A stretch of 63,053 bases of DNA, from the IMG/VR virus record IMGVR_UViG_3300035698_012950, positions 1-63,053 of that record. One strand, 5' to 3'. The notes under the pieces were generated by a model. The model was not told the origin of the DNA, ran no database searches, and saw nothing but the letters and a program-made list of their open reading frames with translations. The DNA comes from a virus. Below are positions 1 to 63,053 of this stretch, piece by piece. The translations under genes and the position numbers were made by a program. Every line of letters begins with the position of its first letter. Positions within the stretch are counted from its first letter, which is position 1.

Positions 1-127
1 AGCAAGATGAAACATTACGCTGCTATCTTTCCCGGCACTAAAGCTAAGGTATATTGATTCGAAATTATCGAACGTATAAATAACTCTTTCCCGGGCTGCC
101 TCAAGAACATCTTTATCAAGAGAGTAT
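1..127. repeat. Left copy of 127-bp terminal direct repeat (circle overlap)
   Basis: Bases 1-127 are identical to 62927-63053. The repeat lies inside the coding frame of the ibrA-like gene, and joining the two ends restores one open frame with an intact PP-loop motif. An overlap of exactly 127 bases is the usual signature of a k=127 assembly graph closing a circle, so this is read as an assembly overlap and not as a biological terminal repeat. Confidence 0.93.
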
Positions 128-144
128 TTTTTTAACTTGCTCAT
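1..144 (-). CDS. ibrA: IbrA-like PAPS reductase/PP-loop protein, N-terminal part (gene crosses the contig ends)
   Basis: This is the start of the gene that continues at 62926 and ends at 61694, giving 458 residues in all. The ATG at 144-142 overlaps the TAA of the upstream ibrB-like gene by one base (TAATG), so the two are probably translationally coupled. The N-terminal residues place SFSAGKDS at about residues 34-41, the PP-loop ATP-pyrophosphatase motif of the PAPS reductase family. The piece is only intelligible once the contig is circularised; a linear gene caller would start the protein 43 residues too late and lose the catalytic loop. Confidence 0.85.
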   Translation of the reverse strand, partial: MSKLKKYSLDKDVLEAARERVIYTFDNFESIYLSFSAGKDSSVMFHLA

Positions 145-1274
145 TAGTATATATCCGAAACAGGTTTATTTTTTATGATATCTTCATCAAGTTCGTTATA
201 TCCATTTTCCATTAACCAAATATTCAAATATTTCAACGCCATTTTATCAGCTTCAAATTGTTGGATTTTGGATAGCTTTGAATATCCTGACCTGAAACAA
301 GAAGGAATCCCATATTCATAGCACAAAGAAGCCTGACCAAGCCAAGCAATCCTATTCATTGTGTCATTTGAAAGATAATGCTCACATGAGTTTTTCCATT
401 CATATATCACTTTCTTAAGAACCAATTCGAAAAGAGGAATGTTTTTTAAAAATTCAGTATATTTATTTTCACAATCATCTTTTGTCATTTCTCCAGGAGG
501 TTTGTTTGAATAAAAACCGGCCTTATGGCATTCCCATTTTTCATAGGTGTGAAGGATTCTACCTTCTTTTTTTTCTTTATCTGGATCAATGTTTTCTTCA
601 TCAAGTATTTCATCAATATCTTCTTCTGTCATCAAATCAATATCCCAGGATTTCGTAAATTCTTGATCTGCAAAAACTTCGCTCAATCCGGATACCTGGC
701 AAAGCCTTAATATTTCATCTGGATCCATGCCAAGTTCTTTGCCTATTTTTTTATTTGACCAATTTCTTCTTTTTAGTTCAACAACTATATCTGTCATGGA
801 GTCCACCTGGTGTTTTCCCCTGGCTCGGTTATGGCGAATTGTTGAGGCTATTCTGTCCATTCTTCCGGTATTGTCTGCCTTTACGAACACAACCGGCAAA
901 TACCCATGAACTCTTTTTCTTACATCTTCGAACTCTTTACAAACCCTGGTTCTATGGAATCCGTCAATAACCTCTATTCCATTTTCAGTGTTCCAGGTAA
1001 CGACCGGTTGGGTATACCCATCATGGTTTATAGAATGGCGTAATAGCTCCATTTCAGGCGGGGCCACGCTGTTTGGGTTGTAGTCGTTTGCTGACACGGT
1101 TTCTGCTTTTACCCACCGGATACAGTCAATGGGCTCTGATTTAAAGGGACTTGCTTCTGATAGCAAGGTTCTAACCTCATTTATTAAATCCACCCTGTCT
1201 TCCAAAAGGGCTTCTGGTAAATTTTTTATTATATCTTGGATTTTATAAACAGCTTCCAAATAATTAATATCCAT
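144..1274 (-). CDS. ibrB: IbrB-like ParB/sulfiredoxin-fold protein
   Basis: A protein of 376 residues. The N-terminal half (about residues 45-200) looks like a ParB/Srx domain: it has a predicted loop with DGFHRTRVC near residue 103, matching the G-x-H-R type nucleotide-binding motif, then RHNRARGKH and an HTH-like stretch (NKKIGKELGMDPDEILRL). The C-terminal 170 residues are unlike chromosomal ParB. It is followed without a gap by a PAPS-reductase-like gene, which is the ibrB-ibrA pair first described as regulators of immunoglobulin-binding proteins in E. coli. Biochemical function is unknown. The gene lies in the leftward operon from the promoter at 1574-1602, behind orf75. No clear ribosome site precedes the ATG. 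Confidence 0.75.
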   Translation of the reverse strand: MDINYLEAVYKIQDIIKNLPEALLEDRVDLINEVRTLLSEASPFKSEPIDCIRWVKAETVSANDYNPNSVAPPEMELLRHSINHDGYTQPVVTWNTENGIEVIDGFHRTRVCKEFEDVRKRVHGYLPVVFVKADNTGRMDRIASTIRHNRARGKHQVDSMTDIVVELKRRNWSNKKIGKELGMDPDEILRLCQVSGLSEVFADQEFTKSWDIDLMTEEDIDEILDEENIDPDKEKKEGRILHTYEKWECHKAGFYSNKPPGEMTKDDCENKYTEFLKNIPLFELVLKKVIYEWKNSCEHYLSNDTMNRIAWLGQASLCYEYGIPSCFRSGYSKLSKIQQFEADKMALKYLNIWLMENGYNELDEDIIKNKPVSDIY

Positions 1275-1293
1275 CTTTATTTAAACACCTTTT

Positions 1294-1521
1294 TTATTTG
1301 ATTATTCCCATTGAAACCCCGTTCACCACATACAAATTGACCTCTCCAGGAGAAGAAAATTTAAATCCTTTCAACTTATTTTGTTCAGGATGAATGGCCG
1401 CATAAGATTTAACGATACAATGATGGTTTTTTTGATTAACTAAATTCGAATTGGTATTAGAAACAGAAAAACCAGGCTCAAGTGGGGTGACAGCCTGGTT
1501 TTTCACGTTGGAATTGATCAT
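1294..1521 (-). CDS. Hypothetical protein, first gene of the leftward operon
   Basis: A 75-residue protein with no recognised domain. The start is fixed by AAGGAGG six bases before the ATG at 1521-1519; a longer frame reaching 1602 would run across the promoter and operator and is not favoured. Its mRNA would begin near 1567, only about 45 bases upstream. Being the first gene after a consensus promoter and beside the repressor suggests a regulatory or anti-repression role, but nothing in the sequence shows it. Confidence 0.75.
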   Translation of the reverse strand: MINSNVKNQAVTPLEPGFSVSNTNSNLVNQKNHHCIVKSYAAIHPEQNKLKGFKFSSPGEVNLYVVNGVSMGIIK

Positions 1522-1548
1522 GCTGGCCTCCTTATCATAGGGGCCGTG

Positions 1549-1566
1549 TTCGCCTGGCAGGGTGAA
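1549..1566. promoter_or_regulatory. Dyad operator O-left
   Basis: The 18-base TTCGCCTGGCAGGGTGAA is nearly palindromic (outer halves TTCGCC/GGTGAA) and sits immediately after the predicted start point of the leftward promoter. Its reverse complement closely matches the element at 1930-1947. Paired matching dyads at two divergent transcription units are typical repressor sites. Binding by the adjacent HTH protein is inference. Confidence 0.6.
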
Positions 1567-1573
1567 TGGTGAA

Positions 1574-1602
1574 ATTATATGTATAAAATATTGATTTGTC
1601 AA
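1574..1602 (-). promoter_or_regulatory. Consensus sigma-70 promoter, leftward
   Basis: On the minus strand TTGACA (1602-1597) is separated by exactly 17 bases from TATAAT (1579-1574), a perfect match to the housekeeping consensus. The start point would be near 1567, directly at the dyad 1549-1566. It drives orf75, ibrB, ibrA and the HAD gene across the contig junction. Confidence 0.85.
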
Positions 1603-1673: not shown

Positions 1674-1907
1674 ATGAAAAAGTTTGAGAGCAAAAAAAAG
1701 AAGAAACCAAGTCAGAAAAAGATCGCTGATAAGCTTGAAATTTCCACAGGTTTTTTGTCAAAGATTTTATCCGGGAAAAGGAATTGCGGCTTTGAATTAG
1801 CCAACAGTATTTCTAAACAGACCGGATCTGAAATTTATCTTTGGCTGACAGGGAATGAGACCTATTCAGAAATCAGGAAAAAACTTTTGTTGAGTGTTGT
1901 TAAATAA
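1674..1907 (+). CDS. XRE-type HTH protein, candidate repressor
   Basis: A 77-residue protein with a lysine-rich N-terminus and a Cro/CI-type helix-turn-helix at about residues 13-45 (QKKIADKLEISTGFLSKIL). It has no peptidase or dimerisation domain, so it resembles a Cro-size regulator more than a full CI. It lies between the leftward promoter/dyad and a second dyad at 1930-1947, and the ATG appears to coincide with the transcription start. The likely role is control of the lysis-lysogeny choice through the two dyads. Which of the repressor or Cro roles it plays cannot be told. Confidence 0.75.
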   Translation: MKKFESKKKKKPSQKKIADKLEISTGFLSKILSGKRNCGFELANSISKQTGSEIYLWLTGNETYSEIRKKLLLSVVK

Positions 1908-3010: not shown

Positions 3011-4792
3011 ATGAGTATCAAAGGGTTAGAACGCCAGTTGAATGAAGCTGGGAAAATCAAAATAGGTATCAAGGGGGCTATGATTAAAAGCGCTGGTGGG
3101 AATGAATTTCAGCCACCACAAAAACTTGACCACATGCTGATTACCACCACAGATAAAGATGAAAACAACAATTATGTGGTTGATGCAGAATTGCAGGACA
3201 AACTCAAGGCCAGCGCCTGTTCAATCGTAAACAAGGATAACAATTTAACCGGCATTGGTATCAGGCTCCTTTATAACGATACTGATTTGAATTTTCCACA
3301 TCGTTATGTATCATATGTTTCCGGAAAAATGTCCTGCCATGGCGATGGTGAAAAATCCCTTAAAAGGATTGATAATTTCACGATAGAACATCCATGCCCA
3401 TGCTCACGGATCGATGGTGGGTACGATGGTAAGGACAAGTGCAAACCATCTGGTACGCTGACTTGTTTCATTGATGAAGCTGATTTTTTCGGCCAGGCCC
3501 ATAAGTTCCGGACAACATCCATGAATACAATCAAAGGCATCCTGGGCGGCATTGAGCTTATCAAATCGGCCACAGGTGGAAAAATTGCCGGTCTTCCTTT
3601 AATGCTGATCATGAACGAAAAACGAACTGCAACCCCTGGAGGTATTGCAACAACGGTATATGTGGTTTCTATCTGCTATCGTGGCAACATGTCCGACCTT
3701 CGAGAAGAGGTTTTGAAGATCATGACAGCCGAAAAACAGTATTTGATCAGTATGGATTCCATTGAAGATCAAGCCAAAAATGATGCCGCTAAAAATACAA
3801 TGACTCCGGAAGAGGAAAGAGAGGTTTGTGAAGAATTTTATCCGGATGCCGTTGTTATCGATGAAAGTAATGGTGAAGTTGATTTGAATAATACCAAAAC
3901 CGTTTCCCAGGAAAATGCCGGCGCCGGTGCCCAGGTTACCCAGGAAAACACCCAGGAAATTAAAACCGATCAGGATCAGAATCAAACTGTTGATCAATCC
4001 GCTACCACCCAGACCAATATTCAAACTGATCAAGAATTAATAGAAGATATTAATTTGCAGTATGTAAAAGCAGTAATCCCGGTTGGATCATATTTGAAAG
4101 TTTACAATAGCTTCATCATAGAAGAAAATCTGGAACCTGCTATGAAATTTGCCAATCGGTTAATGGCAGGTAACATGATCTATTGGCTTGAGCAAAATTA
4201 TTGCGATATTATATTTGAGTCGAATATCAAAAAACCTGAACTTTTAGAAGTGGTTAGACACATCCTAACCAAAACACTTCAGGAATCAACCGTATCTACC
4301 GAATCAGTCAACCCAGGCTCTGCCGGTCAGGAAAACGTTGCTGTGAAATGCATAGAGTGTACTTCATTGCTGATGGAATCCGATTTAGGGATGGTGTGCC
4401 CCAATGGTCATAGTCAATCACCAAACAGCACCCAGGAACAAAAACCGGTTGATACCGGGGGAAATACAGGACAGGTCGAAAAAGAAAAACCGGTTTATGT
4501 AAAAGAATGGGACAATTCCCCAAAAATCACAACTCAAAAAGATTTGTTGAGAATCCTGGTTGCCCTGAAAGTGCAGCTTGAAAAAGAGGGGGTGTTGAGA
4601 CCTGATAAATGGGTCAGCCATGTCAATTATTTTCTTGACGAATCCGGCCAGGAAATTAGTGAAGCGGTAAACCTGACCATCAACCAAGGAAAAACATTTA
4701 TCAATATGCTGGCTTGTTCCACCAAGGAGCCCATTGCAGATACCGTGATTGAACTTGCAGAAAAGAACGGTGTTGATATCACGCCGTTTTAA
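3011..4792 (+). CDS. Recombination directionality factor-like protein (gp3-like) with C-terminal zinc ribbon
   Basis: A 593-residue protein with a strong AAGGAGA site before the ATG. Residues 1-250 resemble the large gp3-like directionality factors of actinophages, which steer integrases to excision: a CHGDG...HPCPCSRID...KCKPSG cysteine cluster, then a beta-rich core with FFGQAHKFRTTSMNTIKG. A low-complexity Gln/Asn/Thr linker (about 295-340) separates this from the C-terminal part, which carries a second zinc ribbon (CIECT...CPNGH, about 446-465). gp3-like proteins usually pair with serine integrases, while this phage has a tyrosine integrase, so the true role may be DNA replication or recombination. 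The family assignment is by eye. Confidence 0.45.
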   Translation: MSIKGLERQLNEAGKIKIGIKGAMIKSAGGNEFQPPQKLDHMLITTTDKDENNNYVVDAELQDKLKASACSIVNKDNNLTGIGIRLLYNDTDLNFPHRYVSYVSGKMSCHGDGEKSLKRIDNFTIEHPCPCSRIDGGYDGKDKCKPSGTLTCFIDEADFFGQAHKFRTTSMNTIKGILGGIELIKSATGGKIAGLPLMLIMNEKRTATPGGIATTVYVVSICYRGNMSDLREEVLKIMTAEKQYLISMDSIEDQAKNDAAKNTMTPEEEREVCEEFYPDAVVIDESNGEVDLNNTKTVSQENAGAGAQVTQENTQEIKTDQDQNQTVDQSATTQTNIQTDQELIEDINLQYVKAVIPVGSYLKVYNSFIIEENLEPAMKFANRLMAGNMIYWLEQNYCDIIFESNIKKPELLEVVRHILTKTLQESTVSTESVNPGSAGQENVAVKCIECTSLLMESDLGMVCPNGHSQSPNSTQEQKPVDTGGNTGQVEKEKPVYVKEWDNSPKITTQKDLLRILVALKVQLEKEGVLRPDKWVSHVNYFLDESGQEISEAVNLTINQGKTFINMLACSTKEPIADTVIELAEKNGVDITPF

Positions 4793-55925: not shown

Positions 55926-56750
55926 TTATATTGATTTTTGCCACAGTTCTTTAACCACATTTTTTGTGATAACTGGTCTTGCCCAAAGCCGTTGAAATTT
56001 TCTCCACTCTGGATCCTCATCGCCAGCTTTATTTTTCCAAAGCATAGCCATGGGCATGAACCCTGCCTCCCATGTTTGCAGGAGCCTTTTTTGTGCTTCC
56101 TCAATCGTGTCATTGGGTGTTCCTATCAATACATAGCATCGTAAATGCCATCTGGTAAAATCGGCATACCTCAATTTTTTACCGGCTTCAATAAGCGGAT
56201 CCAAGTCGGCAGGTTCATCATATGCAAAAAACATCTGGTCCGGGCGCAGATCCCACAGCAAAGAGACATGGTTGTTTGTCAAAATTTTAGCCTCCAGGCC
56301 CCCTGATAGTTGCGCTCCTTTGGCCTGTTTTTTCATCATTTTGAACACTTTTTCAATGTGATAGTCAGAACAGGCAAGGATATTGGAATCTAAAAGGTTG
56401 TGCCCTTCTGTAATAGGCAATTCCCGGATCCCACCTTCTCGTTTAGGGACTGAGCAAAACCAGCAATCGTTTGGGCATCCCCTGGAAGTCATTATGCCAC
56501 CTTTTTTTACATACATCCCAGGAACAAAATCACCACCAGGATCCCCGATTGCAGGTCCGCCAAGTTTAACGTTTGGGCACACCTTTTTCCAGTCCATGTA
56601 TAGGTCACCGGCAAGCTCTCTATCATAAGTGAATGTAACACTGATATGAACTTCATCAACCTGGATCCCTTTAGGAGGTGGGCCAAAAAAGGCCAGGTCA
56701 TCATCAGGTGACATCGTTGTTTTTCTTGGAAATACTCTTGCTATTTTCAT
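55926..56750 (-). CDS. Radical SAM protein
   Basis: A 274-residue enzyme with the cluster motif CPNDCWFC (C92, C96, C99, a CX3CX2C site for 4Fe-4S/SAM) after a TSRG strand. Residues 1-88 resemble the B12-binding-like N-terminal region of MiaB-type radical SAM enzymes (VDEVHISVTFTYDRELAGDLYMDWKKV). The barrel continues with GLEAKILTNNHVSLL and YVLIGTPNDTIEEAQKRL. AAGGAG before ATG. Substrate unknown; phage radical SAM enzymes include tRNA- and DNA-modifying types. Confidence 0.85.
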   Translation of the reverse strand: MKIARVFPRKTTMSPDDDLAFFGPPPKGIQVDEVHISVTFTYDRELAGDLYMDWKKVCPNVKLGGPAIGDPGGDFVPGMYVKKGGIMTSRGCPNDCWFCSVPKREGGIRELPITEGHNLLDSNILACSDYHIEKVFKMMKKQAKGAQLSGGLEAKILTNNHVSLLWDLRPDQMFFAYDEPADLDPLIEAGKKLRYADFTRWHLRCYVLIGTPNDTIEEAQKRLLQTWEAGFMPMAMLWKNKAGDEDPEWRKFQRLWARPVITKNVVKELWQKSI

Positions 56751-57998: not shown

Positions 57999-58568
57999 TT
58001 ATCCCCATTGATCGGCCATTGCCTTGGCTATTCCCGGGAGTGTTGTGCTTCTGATTTTCCACCTGTCTGGGCCAGGGGCTGCATAATGGCATTTGTTTTT
58101 TTCTTTGGCCGGGAGCAAATCCATTTCTTTTTTTACATCATTTGTTTTTATTAATTTTGGAAGATTTTTCAACCATAGGCCTGTCATTTTAGTTTCAGTA
58201 TGCCCAAACCACCAAGGCTGGATGTATTGATCTGCTTTCCTTATATTCGTTCCAATTGCACCAGGTGGATTTTCAAGAGCGATCATTTTTATATTTGAAG
58301 ACAAAAGTTGGTTTACAAATTCAAGAGCGTCATTCTGTTCGTTAACTCTATATTTCCACCACCTTGCCCCAGCTCTGGTCAAATAAGTACACGGTGGATG
58401 GGCAATCATCATATCCCATCCATCATCTATGATATCAAAAACGTCACCTTGATAATGAGCGCCGGCGGATTCCGTTGGAAGGATATCGCAGGACATAACT
58501 TCATGGCCTTTTTTTGTGAACGCGTCCCGGACCCGGCCGGAGTATTCACAGGCAATTAATATTTTCAT
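57999..58568 (-). CDS. C5-methylase-like Rossmann protein
   Basis: A 189-residue protein of a type common in phages. ILIACEYSGRVRDAF resembles the SAM-binding motif I, MIAHPPCTYLTRAGARWW contains PPC in the place of the catalytic PCQ/PPC loop (Cys60), and IALENPPG (99-103) corresponds to the ENV motif. It lacks a target-recognition domain, so methylation is uncertain. Behind AAGGAGA. The genome thus has two methylase-type genes. Confidence 0.65.
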   Translation of the reverse strand: MKILIACEYSGRVRDAFTKKGHEVMSCDILPTESAGAHYQGDVFDIIDDGWDMMIAHPPCTYLTRAGARWWKYRVNEQNDALEFVNQLLSSNIKMIALENPPGAIGTNIRKADQYIQPWWFGHTETKMTGLWLKNLPKLIKTNDVKKEMDLLPAKEKNKCHYAAPGPDRWKIRSTTLPGIAKAMADQWG

Positions 58569-58602: not shown

Positions 58603-59418
58603 TTAAAAATTTACCTTGTCCACTTCCTTTTTCAAGTGTTCCGGTGTCAAGTGTGAATAGATCATCGTGGTATTGATTTGGGAGTGGGTCAGTAATTCCA
58701 TGAGCGATCGCAGATCCCCATCGTTCATCAAATACAGGGAAGCGAATGAATGTCTTGTGTGGTGCAAATGGTAATCACCCAGGCCAGCCAGCCGGAGTTC
58801 GTCCTTGACCTTGTGGGTTACGGTATCCGGTAAATACTTTGGGAAAATTTTCCCTGAAGATTTGGGTCCCAGGCTTTGGAGGATTGATTCAAAAAGACCA
58901 TTCATGGGAAGATCCATTTCTTTATGGCCCTTCACGCTGGTTACCCGGTAAGTGTGGTCCTCAAAATTTATATCTTTCCAATCCAGGGCAAGAAGCTCCC
59001 CCCGCCTCCGCCCGGTGGCAAGATATGCCGTGATAAGATTTTTCATGTAAGGGTCTTTTATCCCGGGTAAGAACTTTTGGATCTGGGGCCTGGTCAAAAA
59101 CATTGGCGGTTTCTTTTCTACTCGGAGTGGTTTAATTTTATCCCATGGGCTTGTCTCGATGAATTTCCAGATTACGGCCTTATTGAATGCCGCCTTGATA
59201 TGCCGGTAATAATTGTTGACTGTTGAAGATTTAAGGCCCCTGGCTTTGCTGTGAGAAACGAATTGATCGCATTCAAGGGTGGTGACATCCTCAATCTCTG
59301 AATCATGGCAGAACTCACAGAATAACCGCAGGGCCAGCTCGTTGGCGACCTGGGTATTTGGAGCATGGGCCCCGGCGCTGTACTTTGCAAACTCTTTGTT
59401 AAATTCTGATAGTTTCAT
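58603..59418 (-). CDS. int: Tyrosine-type integrase
   Basis: A 271-residue site-specific recombinase. The N-terminal SAM-like core-binding domain (about 1-95) precedes the catalytic domain with the first Arg in ATGRRRGELLALDW (R139), HHTRHSF (H219, R222), LTHSQ (H245) and catalytic Tyr254 in TTMIYSHL. All catalytic residues are visible. Its ATG overlaps the stop of the upstream RHH gene (ATGA). It would integrate the phage into the host chromosome; the attP site is not recognisable. Confidence 0.95.
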   Translation of the reverse strand: MKLSEFNKEFAKYSAGAHAPNTQVANELALRLFCEFCHDSEIEDVTTLECDQFVSHSKARGLKSSTVNNYYRHIKAAFNKAVIWKFIETSPWDKIKPLRVEKKPPMFLTRPQIQKFLPGIKDPYMKNLITAYLATGRRRGELLALDWKDINFEDHTYRVTSVKGHKEMDLPMNGLFESILQSLGPKSSGKIFPKYLPDTVTHKVKDELRLAGLGDYHLHHTRHSFASLYLMNDGDLRSLMELLTHSQINTTMIYSHLTPEHLKKEVDKVNF

Positions 59419-60731: not shown

Positions 60732-61322
60732 TTATTCCGGAAGAGCTGAAAACAATTTCTGTACCCACTCTGTTCTGTTTTTGGCCCTTTCAATCTCTTC
60801 CTTGTTCCCCTTCTTTGCCCTTTTGATGGCACCAATCAAAAACATGATCTTATTATCTTTCCAAGTTTCGTCATCCACCTTGATAGGGGGCGTAACGTAG
60901 TCAGTGTTGCAATCAAATTCAATGCTCTGGCAAATTTGATCATCCATGAACTTCTTATATTCGTCATGATCATTGGATGGTGATTCCCATGCCCTGACAT
61001 GTTCGAGCATGTTTGAATATTTTTCTCTCTGATCAAGCATTTCTGCAAGTTGTTCTTTGTTCCGCTTAACCCGGTTGGAATATTCTGAATCATTCTCTTT
61101 TTTGATTTCTGTGTCAGACATGTCATTTACTTTTTTAATCTCAAGCTCATATTTAACAATGTTCTTTGCATCGTAGTCGCTTGGTTCAAACTTCTGTGGG
61201 ATTTCGGCATCCATCGGTTCGTCTCTCATCATAATCAATGCGCCAAAAGCTCTTGAACAATCCAATGCGAATTCTCTAAAACTGATCCCATCTTTTATTT
61301 TTGCTGTGTATCCAGTAGGCAT
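60732..61322 (-). CDS. Conserved phage protein of unknown function (196 aa)
   Basis: The N-terminus PTGYTAKIKDGISFREFALDCSRAFGALIMMRDEP followed by IPQKFEPSDY is a pattern shared by many phage proteins of 150-200 residues. The rest is helical, with a charged coiled coil (SNRVKRNKEQLAEMLDQREKYSNML). Function not established. It lies downstream of the HAD gene in the leftward operon. Confidence 0.75.
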   Translation of the reverse strand: MPTGYTAKIKDGISFREFALDCSRAFGALIMMRDEPMDAEIPQKFEPSDYDAKNIVKYELEIKKVNDMSDTEIKKENDSEYSNRVKRNKEQLAEMLDQREKYSNMLEHVRAWESPSNDHDEYKKFMDDQICQSIEFDCNTDYVTPPIKVDDETWKDNKIMFLIGAIKRAKKGNKEEIERAKNRTEWVQKLFSALPE

Positions 61323-61376: not shown

Positions 61377-61697
61377 CTAAAAATCTTCAAATTTCATCAT
61401 TTTATCATCAACATAATGATTACTGCCACCTTTACCCATCATTACGCCATGAAACGGTATAGAATGCTTAATTAACCACGACACAACAAAGGGCGCTTGA
61501 TCCCATTGCCTTGCTGTCCAAATAATGATGGTGTGGCCGTTCATGTATCTTTTTTTAAGTTTTTCAATCATTATTTCATTGAGCCCCGGATCAGAAGTGT
61601 ATTCGCCGGTTGTCAAAGTTCCGTCAAAATCTACATTGAAAACTTTGGGTATTGGGTTTTCAATGTATTGTAAAACATCTTTTTTTTTCTCAGTCAA
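61377..61697 (-). CDS. HAD-superfamily phosphatase, copy 2
   Basis: A 106-residue HAD protein with NVDFDGTLT, IIIWTARQWDQAPF and NHYVDDK. It differs from the 11486-11788 product at about 20 of 96 aligned residues. The start overlaps the ibrA stop (ATGA), so it is part of the ibrB-ibrA operon. Two copies on opposite arms of one phage are unusual and imply either duplication or recombination with a relative. Confidence 0.8.
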   Translation of the reverse strand: MTEKKKDVLQYIENPIPKVFNVDFDGTLTTGEYTSDPGLNEIMIEKLKKRYMNGHTIIIWTARQWDQAPFVVSWLIKHSIPFHGVMMGKGGSNHYVDDKMMKFEDF

Positions 61698-63053
61698 AAC
61701 AAATCTCCTTGGTTTATATCAAGTGGTTTTGGAGGAAGGATAACAAATCCATTTTTATCAGCTAATTCTAAAAGGTCCTGGGCTTCTTTTTTGGTATTAC
61801 AAACAATATATTCAAAAGATTTTGAGGCGGCCTTTATCAGTTCAAGGTTTTTATCAAGCATTTTCTTTTTTCGCTCCTTTTTTATTCCAAGGTATTTTCC
61901 ATAGGCTTCGCTTTTTGGCTGGGTCATTCCCAATCCCTTGCACCAGTAATCATTTCTTAATAAAACCTTACACAACCTACGCCATGACGGAGCCCAATAT
62001 TTATTTTCAAGCTCCAGTGGTGCTTCGTCTGGAATCTTATCATAACCACGCCTTTTCCATCCTGATATGAATTTCAAAAATCTTTCAAGATAATGATCCC
62101 TGGTTTTTTTGGGCATTGTCCTTAATAATAATTTGCAAAAGCTTTTCCAGGTATGGTTTTCTGGCTTATAAATTTTATTGTATCCGGTTACATTGCCATT
62201 TTCTTGAATATACAAGGCCCCCCCATTCACACCGTTCACTCTGGCAATTAATCTATACCAAGTATCAGGCTCAAGTAGATGGTAAAGCCACAGGCCACGC
62301 CTTTGATCATCGCCATATGGTTGGCATAACCTCATTTGAGAGGGCTTAACCCCTGCTTTGTGCATTTGATCATAAATAGTATTATGTGGGCTGTATGGAT
62401 AAACAGAATGAAAATGCCAAATATCTGCTGTTTTCCAGTCATAAATAGGATAAATATTATAAAGATCATCAATAACCTTTGTGGTAAACCTTTGGCTATT
62501 ATGGGTTTCTTTCGTTTTTGAGGCAATTGTGCGAAACCGGTTTAAACTTTCATCGCATCTAATACCAACCATGCAAGCCGTTTCCTTTCCTTTTCCATAC
62601 CAATCTCCAAACAAAATTATAAACTCTTCAAATTCCATATCATCATAAAAAAATGGGAAGAAATCAGAGTCAGAAATAACACCGGCGTGTTTCGGTTTTT
62701 CTCTGACCCAGACATCTTCAAAGCCTTTTCCCCATGCCGTCCATTTCGGGTTATAGTTGCTTACCGCATTTCTCAATGATATGGGAAGGCACACCCAATA
62801 AACCTCTATATTATCCTTGTATAATTCAAACATTTCGACGGCATGATTAATGGTTGTTGTGTATTGCGCCTCAAGATCGATTAATAATATACCAACGATC
62901 CGGTTTCTTTTTATAGCCTCTTCCATAGCAAGATGAAACATTACGCTGCTATCTTTCCCGGCACTAAAGCTAAGGTATATTGATTCGAAATTATCGAACG
63001 TATAAATAACTCTTTCCCGGGCTGCCTCAAGAACATCTTTATCAAGAGAGTAT
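61694..63053 (-). CDS. ibrA: IbrA-like PAPS reductase/DUF3440 protein (main part; starts at base 144 across the junction)
   Basis: Main part of a 458-residue protein whose first 43 residues, including the PP-loop SFSAGKDS, are encoded at 144-1. Bases 62927-63053 are the duplicate of 1-127. Family: adenosine nucleotide alpha-hydrolases, PAPS reductase branch with a DUF3440-like C-terminus, as in IbrA. Visible features are VYWVCLPISLRNAVSNYNPKWTAWGK, a MVGIRCDESLNRFRTI motif, YPIYDWKTADIWHF (family signature) and QPYGDDQRRGLWLYHL. Forms a coupled pair with the IbrB-like gene. It probably activates or modifies a substrate with ATP; what substrate is unknown. Confidence 0.82.
   Translation of the reverse strand, partial: YSLDKDVLEAARERVIYTFDNFESIYLSFSAGKDSSVMFHLAMEEAIKRNRIVGILLIDLEAQYTTTINHAVEMFELYKDNIEVYWVCLPISLRNAVSNYNPKWTAWGKGFEDVWVREKPKHAGVISDSDFFPFFYDDMEFEEFIILFGDWYGKGKETACMVGIRCDESLNRFRTIASKTKETHNSQRFTTKVIDDLYNIYPIYDWKTADIWHFHSVYPYSPHNTIYDQMHKAGVKPSQMRLCQPYGDDQRRGLWLYHLLEPDTWYRLIARVNGVNGGALYIQENGNVTGYNKIYKPENHTWKSFCKLLLRTMPKKTRDHYLERFLKFISGWKRRGYDKIPDEAPLELENKYWAPSWRRLCKVLLRNDYWCKGLGMTQPKSEAYGKYLGIKKERKKKMLDKNLELIKAASKSFEYIVCNTKKEAQDLLELADKNGFVILPPKPLDINQGDLF
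62927..63053. repeat. Right copy of 127-bp terminal direct repeat (circle overlap)
   Basis: Exact copy of bases 1-127. Removing one copy gives a circular genome of 62,926 bp. Continuing leftward from base 1 into base 62926 keeps the reading frame of the minus-strand gene that both copies fall in. Confidence 0.93.

Follow-up and report, generated by a model that had tools for sequence, protein, structure and literature searches.

Sequence comparison identifies a conserved third partner of the IbrA/IbrB protein pair, and this partner is a helical domain, here called X, not the HAD-type phosphatase whose gene follows the pair in the phage studied. X makes up the C-terminal 147 residues of the "IbrB" open reading frame (ORF). 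The first-pass annotation overlooked that this ORF is a two-domain fusion of an N-terminal part and X, and the separability of X first became apparent against 18 first relatives, many of which carry it as a distinct gene.

The window, meaning the whole 63,053-nt stretch analyzed (IMG/VR record IMGVR_UViG_3300035698_012950), begins and ends with the same 127 bases (1-127 are identical to 62927-63053), and we therefore regard it as a circular phage contig. Spanning the contig break, the cassette runs on the minus strand from a promoter and leader through ibrB, ibrA and the HAD gene to a phrog_8905 gene. An earlier placement of the entire cassette within 1-1602 was too narrow: that segment holds just the promoter, the leader, ibrB and the first 48 ibrA codons, and because the contig is circular, what remains of ibrA is found outside it, as is the HAD gene, at 61377-63053. 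The coding features are as follows.

588..1274, minus strand: N-terminal part of ibrB (residues 1-229), with a ParB/sulfiredoxin-type domain, a DGFHR motif and a helix-turn-helix (HTH) region; phrog_2159, E 5e-68
144..587, minus strand: X domain (ibrB ORF residues 230-376), made up of helices only and encoded separately in many relatives
1..144, minus strand: first 48 codons of ibrA, with the start ATG at 144, continuing past the window start
61694..63053, minus strand: remainder of ibrA (458 aa in all), a PP-loop ATPase of the PAPS reductase clan plus DUF3440
61377..61697, minus strand: HAD phosphatase copy 1 (106 aa), coupled to ibrA, with a DFDGT motif
60732..61322, minus strand: co-directional gene after HAD copy 1, phrog_8905

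The tightly joined ibrB-ibrA pair described earlier is real, with an IbrB-like ORF at 1274-144 and an IbrA-like ORF from 144 sharing one base (TAATG). The HAD gene is likewise coupled to ibrA, as had been proposed, through a TTG start, an AGGAG upstream and a 4-base overlap with the ibrA stop. An integrase gene (58603-59418) lies downstream of the cassette on the same strand, and its same-strand gene block includes a radical-SAM-like protein at 55926-56750 (phrog_9298, E 2e-21). A further methylation-type gene of the phage, at 57999-58568, matches PHROG 757 "DNA methyltransferase" (E 3e-64), with no Pfam match, and a protein of the Gp3-like recombination-directionality-factor family (PF18897) is encoded at 3011-4792, close to the start of the rightward operon. 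An Rfam scan of the window gave no matches, and a tRNA scan found none.

Relatives of IbrA occur in 216 of 50,697 phage records (neighborhoods were inspected in 10 of the 216), and the earlier statement that such pairs are known mainly from E. coli prophage-rich strains is inaccurate. Our locus comparison covers 186 IbrA loci: 18 and 77 viral, 10 from annotated phages, 80 from genomes, and that of the window. Because each search of viral or genome sequences kept the best 80 of more candidates, the counts favor relatives near the window. Among the matches listed, IbrB stands beside IbrA in 184 of the 186 loci, the two misses being cut by contig ends, and IbrA lies 20 bases or fewer from the IbrB or X ORF in 157 of 185. 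The first-pass annotation had also described an ibrB-ibrA-HAD cassette, proposed a check for co-occurrence and named an unlinked HAD gene in relatives as a refutation. When this check was run, HAD was present in 1 of 186 loci among the matches listed, the window itself; being unlinked in relatives, it is not a conserved partner of IbrAB. The count was made by phmmer and a motif scan, with at least 600 bases downstream of ibrA in 179 of the 186 loci, and the other DxDG matches, in L081 and L165, look spurious.

X is present in 98 of the 186 IbrA loci among the matches listed, fused to IbrB in 55 and separate in 43 (40 loci, plus 3 with a GNAT gene too), and X, IbrA, GNAT and IbrB are found all together in three loci (L013, L018 and L100). 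The gene orders IbrB-X-IbrA and X-IbrA-IbrB both occur. On an IbrA tree (FastTree, with some long branches), X undergoes at least seven changes and fusion or fission at least five. A reciprocal search with X alone reached at least 70 previously unseen loci, and IbrA and IbrB were both found in 70 of the 70 listed. The predicted structure of X is a bundle of about seven helices (pLDDT 92, pTM 0.87), and its conserved features include R-x-x-H, W-E, S-x-E-H and N-R-x-A-W-x-G-Q. The X of the window matched no family in Pfam or PHROG, and 45 X sequences searched against families gave just scattered chance-level matches (E 0.014 or worse, one or two members each). Against PDB sequences the best E was 0.11, and against PDB folds the model reached at best a Foldseek E of 2.1 and a VIA Z of 3.6, a missing match being no proof. 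A viral library returned one match, A0A649V0K8 (E 1e-4).

A second lineage of IbrAB loci carries a predicted GNAT acetyltransferase and an SNF2-like helicase in place of X. In Clostridia, Proteobacteria and others, IbrA and IbrB are separated or flanked by a GNAT-like gene, which among the matches listed was found in 22 of 186 loci by single-linkage clusters and in 27 of 186 by profile; the same profile found it in none of the 70 X loci listed. Several of these genes match Pfam Acetyltransf_1/7, while the Clostridia ones match weakly or not at all. The GNAT profile search yielded five viral loci, all five of which read SNF2-like helicase-IbrA-GNAT-IbrB, and at L264:1081-2775 IbrA and GNAT are fused into a 564-aa protein. 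A related helicase adjoins IbrAB in Streptococcus, Lactobacillus and Flavobacterium phages, with one gene between them in a Fusobacterium phage, and by profile a helicase is present in 17 of the 186 loci among the matches listed. We also observed a family of 122-140 aa proteins (KKDYxxANxxGSRGVxxYY) encoded directly upstream of IbrA in seven loci (L014, L022 and L110-L114).

The HAD gene keeps company of its own. Copy 1 matches TIGR01689 (E 1.5e-7, 31.4/162 bits) and NF046079 (30.2/165 bits), both below cut-off, and 1xpj (E 1e-6). It weakly resembles the HAD phosphatases EcbF/BcbF of TIGR01689 and BT0820, with motif I present, but it is sub-cut-off, short, and placed beside methyltransferase, thymidylate synthase and ibrA genes. 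The window holds a second copy next to a methyltransferase gene.

11486..11788, plus strand: HAD copy 2 (100 aa), 79% identical to copy 1
11790..12938, plus strand: C5-cytosine DNA methyltransferase (PF00145, E 9e-34, scanned as 11775-12938)

Copy 2 ends one base ahead of the methyltransferase; a frame for the latter at 11788-12912 was rejected as wrong, the true ORF being 11790-12938. A ThyX-type thymidylate synthase is encoded at 9932-10591 (PF02511, E 9.5e-42), shortly upstream of these two genes. For comparison with other contigs we used outside HAD copies of at least 50% identity, seven in number, with the one at L271, where no HAD ORF is called, ambiguous. In L258/L266 (one contig) HAD abuts an N6-methyltransferase-like ORF with a 4-base overlap, an NPPY motif and a weak match to the EcoRI methylase (E 0.003); it abuts a C5-methyltransferase in L267 (HhaI, E 2e-8), a helicase-methyltransferase fusion in L268 (4-base overlap; methyltransferase 2zie, E 3e-9) and ThyX in L270, and in L269 one small ORF separates it from ThyA. 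Four loci with HAD relatives at 28-33% identity (L272, L273, L275 and L277) had no methyltransferase by motif; neighborhoods were covered in 10 of the 14 loci, that is, all but L274, L276, L278 and L279. Two of 27 HAD-bearing phage records were also covered: in Enterococcus phage 9183 a HAD relative neighbors genes for thymidylate synthase and dUTPase, and that of a Halorubrum virus is surrounded by primase, exonuclease and HNH genes, with no methyltransferase. The HAD subfamily thus travels with genes acting on DNA bases or thymidine nucleotides.

We tentatively favor, as a real possibility, a reading in which the cassette encodes an ATP-dependent phage complex acting to modify DNA or the nucleotides from which it is made. 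As a PP-loop ATP pyrophosphatase, IbrA would activate a group by adenylation, and IbrB would use its ParB/sulfiredoxin domain (DGFHR) to bind a nucleotide and its HTH region to touch DNA. X may serve as a helical adaptor through which IbrB docks onto IbrA; in the other lineage, in place of X, the helicase would open or move along the DNA and the GNAT protein would add the group. HAD might be an optional helper, one that also rides with DNA methyltransferase or thymidylate synthase genes, and would probably dephosphorylate a nucleotide by-product. What we infer here is when the cassette is expressed, that a complex forms, that DNA is the substrate, what X, GNAT, helicase and HAD do, and in which order the steps occur.

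A DNA- or nucleotide-modification role had already been suggested from the window. It is supported in direction by the methyltransferase and thymidylate synthase neighbors of HAD and by the ties of IbrAB to X, GNAT and the SNF2-like helicase. Operon structure, fusions, linkage and domain identity are all read from sequence. The tying of IbrA, IbrB and X by fusion and reciprocal linkage, the GNAT and helicase alternatives, the neighbors of HAD and the ParB-type model of IbrB would all argue for modification. Part of the gene company may be chance, because GNAT proteins, helicases and methyltransferases are common in phages. Against modification stands the enterobacterial ybdNM, a pair of chromosomal genes that lacks X, GNAT and helicase and does not resemble phage DNA modification; 46 of the 80 genome loci among the matches listed likewise bear no X, GNAT or helicase label. 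In E. coli K-12, CitR acts as a repressor of ybdNM (PMC9068703).

The structure of IbrB bears on both this reading and its main rival. Its AlphaFold model resembles ParB-CDP/CTP structures, and the ParB N-domain fold is confirmed: by VIA, the best comparisons are with M. xanthus ParB with CDP (7o0n; Z 13.8, rmsd 1.7, 92 residues), KorB (Z 13.7 over 135 residues) and sulfiredoxin (Z 10.4), and by Foldseek the model matches Noc (E 5e-6). Residues 50-201 thus share the fold of the ParB, Noc and KorB CTPase clamps, of sulfiredoxin and of the free serine kinase SerK/SbnI. The DGFHR motif (104-108), invariant across 43 fused relatives, takes the place of the GERR or GGCHR of ParB/sulfiredoxin relatives.

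An unlikely alternative, drawing on the same fold, is that IbrAB is a transcription co-activator, in which IbrB would be a CTP-dependent clamp like ParB, Noc or KorB that IbrA modifies or loads, turning on late or moron genes. The ParB N-domain and HTH region of the model, with their likeness to KorB, are consistent with this, several records are named "co-activator of prophage gene expression," and in work by Sandt et al. 2002 IbrAB is reported to activate prophage eib genes, the only genetic result known to us. That reported activation also counts against the modification reading. A co-activator leaves unexplained the fixed pairing with a PP-loop ATPase, and likewise the GNAT and helicase genes; the HTH region is modeled at low confidence (pLDDT about 46-75), and X occupies the place of the ParB C-terminal domain.

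The regulatory region holds the features below.

1574..1602, minus strand: sigma-70 consensus promoter TTGACA-17-TATAAT, with TTGACA at 1602 and TATAAT ending at 1574
1294..1521, minus strand: leader ORF of 75 aa, with a GGAGG ribosome site ahead
1466..1504, either strand: hairpin inside the leader ORF, a perfect 13-bp inverted repeat with a 13-base loop, the 3' arm ending in T5
1542..1563, plus strand: 22-base element GGCCGTGTTCGCCTGGCAGGGT, nearly repeated at 1923-1945, within the opposite operon's leader
1674..1907, plus strand: divergent, repressor-like HTH gene of 77 aa, with HTH_19/HTH_3 matches below Pfam cut-offs

The perfect promoter reported earlier holds up: it matches the consensus at 12 of 12 positions with a 17-base spacer and is the sole such site in the window, while a first-order Markov model produced such a site in 3 of 100 sequences (mean 0.03). 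The repressor-type dyad said to lie within it does not, as none is convincing, the nearest being 9-base arms 34 bases apart (1585-1593 and 1628-1636) and a 17-base pair at 71%. As a candidate operator we note a direct repeat of 16 bases, at 1598-1613 and 1666-1681, overlapping the cassette -35 and the start of the HTH gene. Of the "repressor" beside the cassette, the HTH gene on the other strand is present; its role as a repressor is plausible, its HTH matches falling below the Pfam cut-offs. The gap of about 300 bases between promoter and ibrB contains the leader ORF and hairpin, both overlooked by the first-pass annotation. The leader peptide had no blastp match in the 18 relatives, and the hairpin (1504-1466) is terminator- or attenuator-like, with an RNA fold z of -3.5. 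With this ORF and a perfect hairpin with a T run ahead of ibrB, transcription of the cassette may be attenuated there, or the hairpin may mark a small RNA. The 22-base element is common to the leaders of both divergent operons in the form GGCCGTGTTC(G/A)CC..TGGCAGGG, and perfect GGCCGTGTTC occurs just twice in the window.

The strong promoter beside a repressor-like gene, together with the integrase gene downstream on the same strand, might suggest a prophage-expressed defense or superinfection-exclusion module, which we consider rather improbable. Among five window proteins scanned against the 2023 PADLOC library, matches comprised a weak DndC hit and HTH/control-protein models, with no defense system match beyond these. 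IbrAB is also found in a phage without lysogeny genes: an IbrA relative is encoded by Flavobacterium phage FCL-2, for which its authors report neither an integrase nor a repressor and no lysogeny (PMC4541368), and immunity control, as put forward earlier, is not supported as a general feature.

IbrA scores above the Pfam gathering thresholds for both PF11922 (E 1.5e-34, 119.8 vs 25 bits) and PF01507 (E 1.9e-12, 48 vs 22.5 bits). Among the matches listed (186 sequences), the PP-loop residues S36, G38, K39, D40 and S41 and the GIRxxES core are at least 95% conserved, and no cysteine reaches 95%, the best being C249 (175/186) and C377 (164/186). With this pattern of conservation, IbrA would more probably be an adenylating enzyme than a reductase. 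An auxiliary gene for sulfur or nucleotide metabolism, that is, a true PAPS/APS reductase or sulfurylase boosting the host's metabolism, is quite improbable: the PAPS_reduct domain is above cut-off, and one paper calls such a phage gene an AMG (PMC10434257), but IbrA falls far under the NCBIfam cut-offs for PAPS reductase (TIGR02057, 22/254.2 bits) and CysD (25.7/195), on which a real PAPS reductase is rejected, and it is constantly paired with a protein of ParB fold rather than with a sulfur enzyme.

As two papers describe them, DndC/DndB and SspD/SspE, like IbrAB, combine a PP-loop enzyme of the PAPS-reductase clan with a ParB-superfamily protein, and the Fe-S cluster of DndC needs C280 (PMC11662687, PMC12839542). 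A phosphorothioation-like sulfur modification of DNA by a reduced Dnd/Ssp cousin using the host cysteine desulfurase is nonetheless highly improbable: this shared partnership and a weak DndC match of IbrA (PADLOC, E 4.6e-6) speak for it, but IbrA shows no fully conserved cysteine set among the 186 sequences, and no DndD, DndE, SspB or SspC was seen in the five window proteins scanned.

IbrAB itself is already known. IbrA/IbrB of E. coli ECOR-9 and YbdN/YbdM of K-12 belong to the same two families (DUF3440 and ParB-like) and are likewise adjacent and coupled, and the IbrA of the window is about 40-45% identical to enterobacterial loci among the matches listed. The window differs from these pairs in its reversed order (IbrB first), the fusion of X to IbrB, the appended HAD and the phage setting; X, GNAT, helicase and the 122-140 aa family were not found at the enterobacterial ybdNM-type loci listed. 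In the literature covered, with subscription papers mostly outside its scope, we found nothing on a third IbrAB component, X fusions, the GNAT/helicase branch or IbrAB chemistry, and the available parts of an mBio paper and a glacial-virus paper list IbrA/B by name only.

It is conceivable, if doubtful, that IbrAB cassettes form an undescribed class of phage-borne nucleic-acid modification machinery. A constant core, with IbrA as a PP-loop adenylating enzyme and IbrB of ParB/sulfiredoxin fold, would combine with an exchangeable X or GNAT plus SNF2-like helicase to place a new mark on phage DNA, and the HAD of this phage, which also accompanies its cytosine methyltransferase, would assist two different marking systems within the genome. 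Hundreds of phage records, and E. coli K-12 with its ybdNM genes, carry IbrA/IbrB relatives for which no chemistry is known. The finding of a third component that has fusions of its own, together with the GNAT/helicase lineage, would turn the vague label of "co-activator" into a concrete, testable enzyme complex, and the HAD copies provide an independent hint that the target may be DNA or thymidine/cytosine nucleotides.
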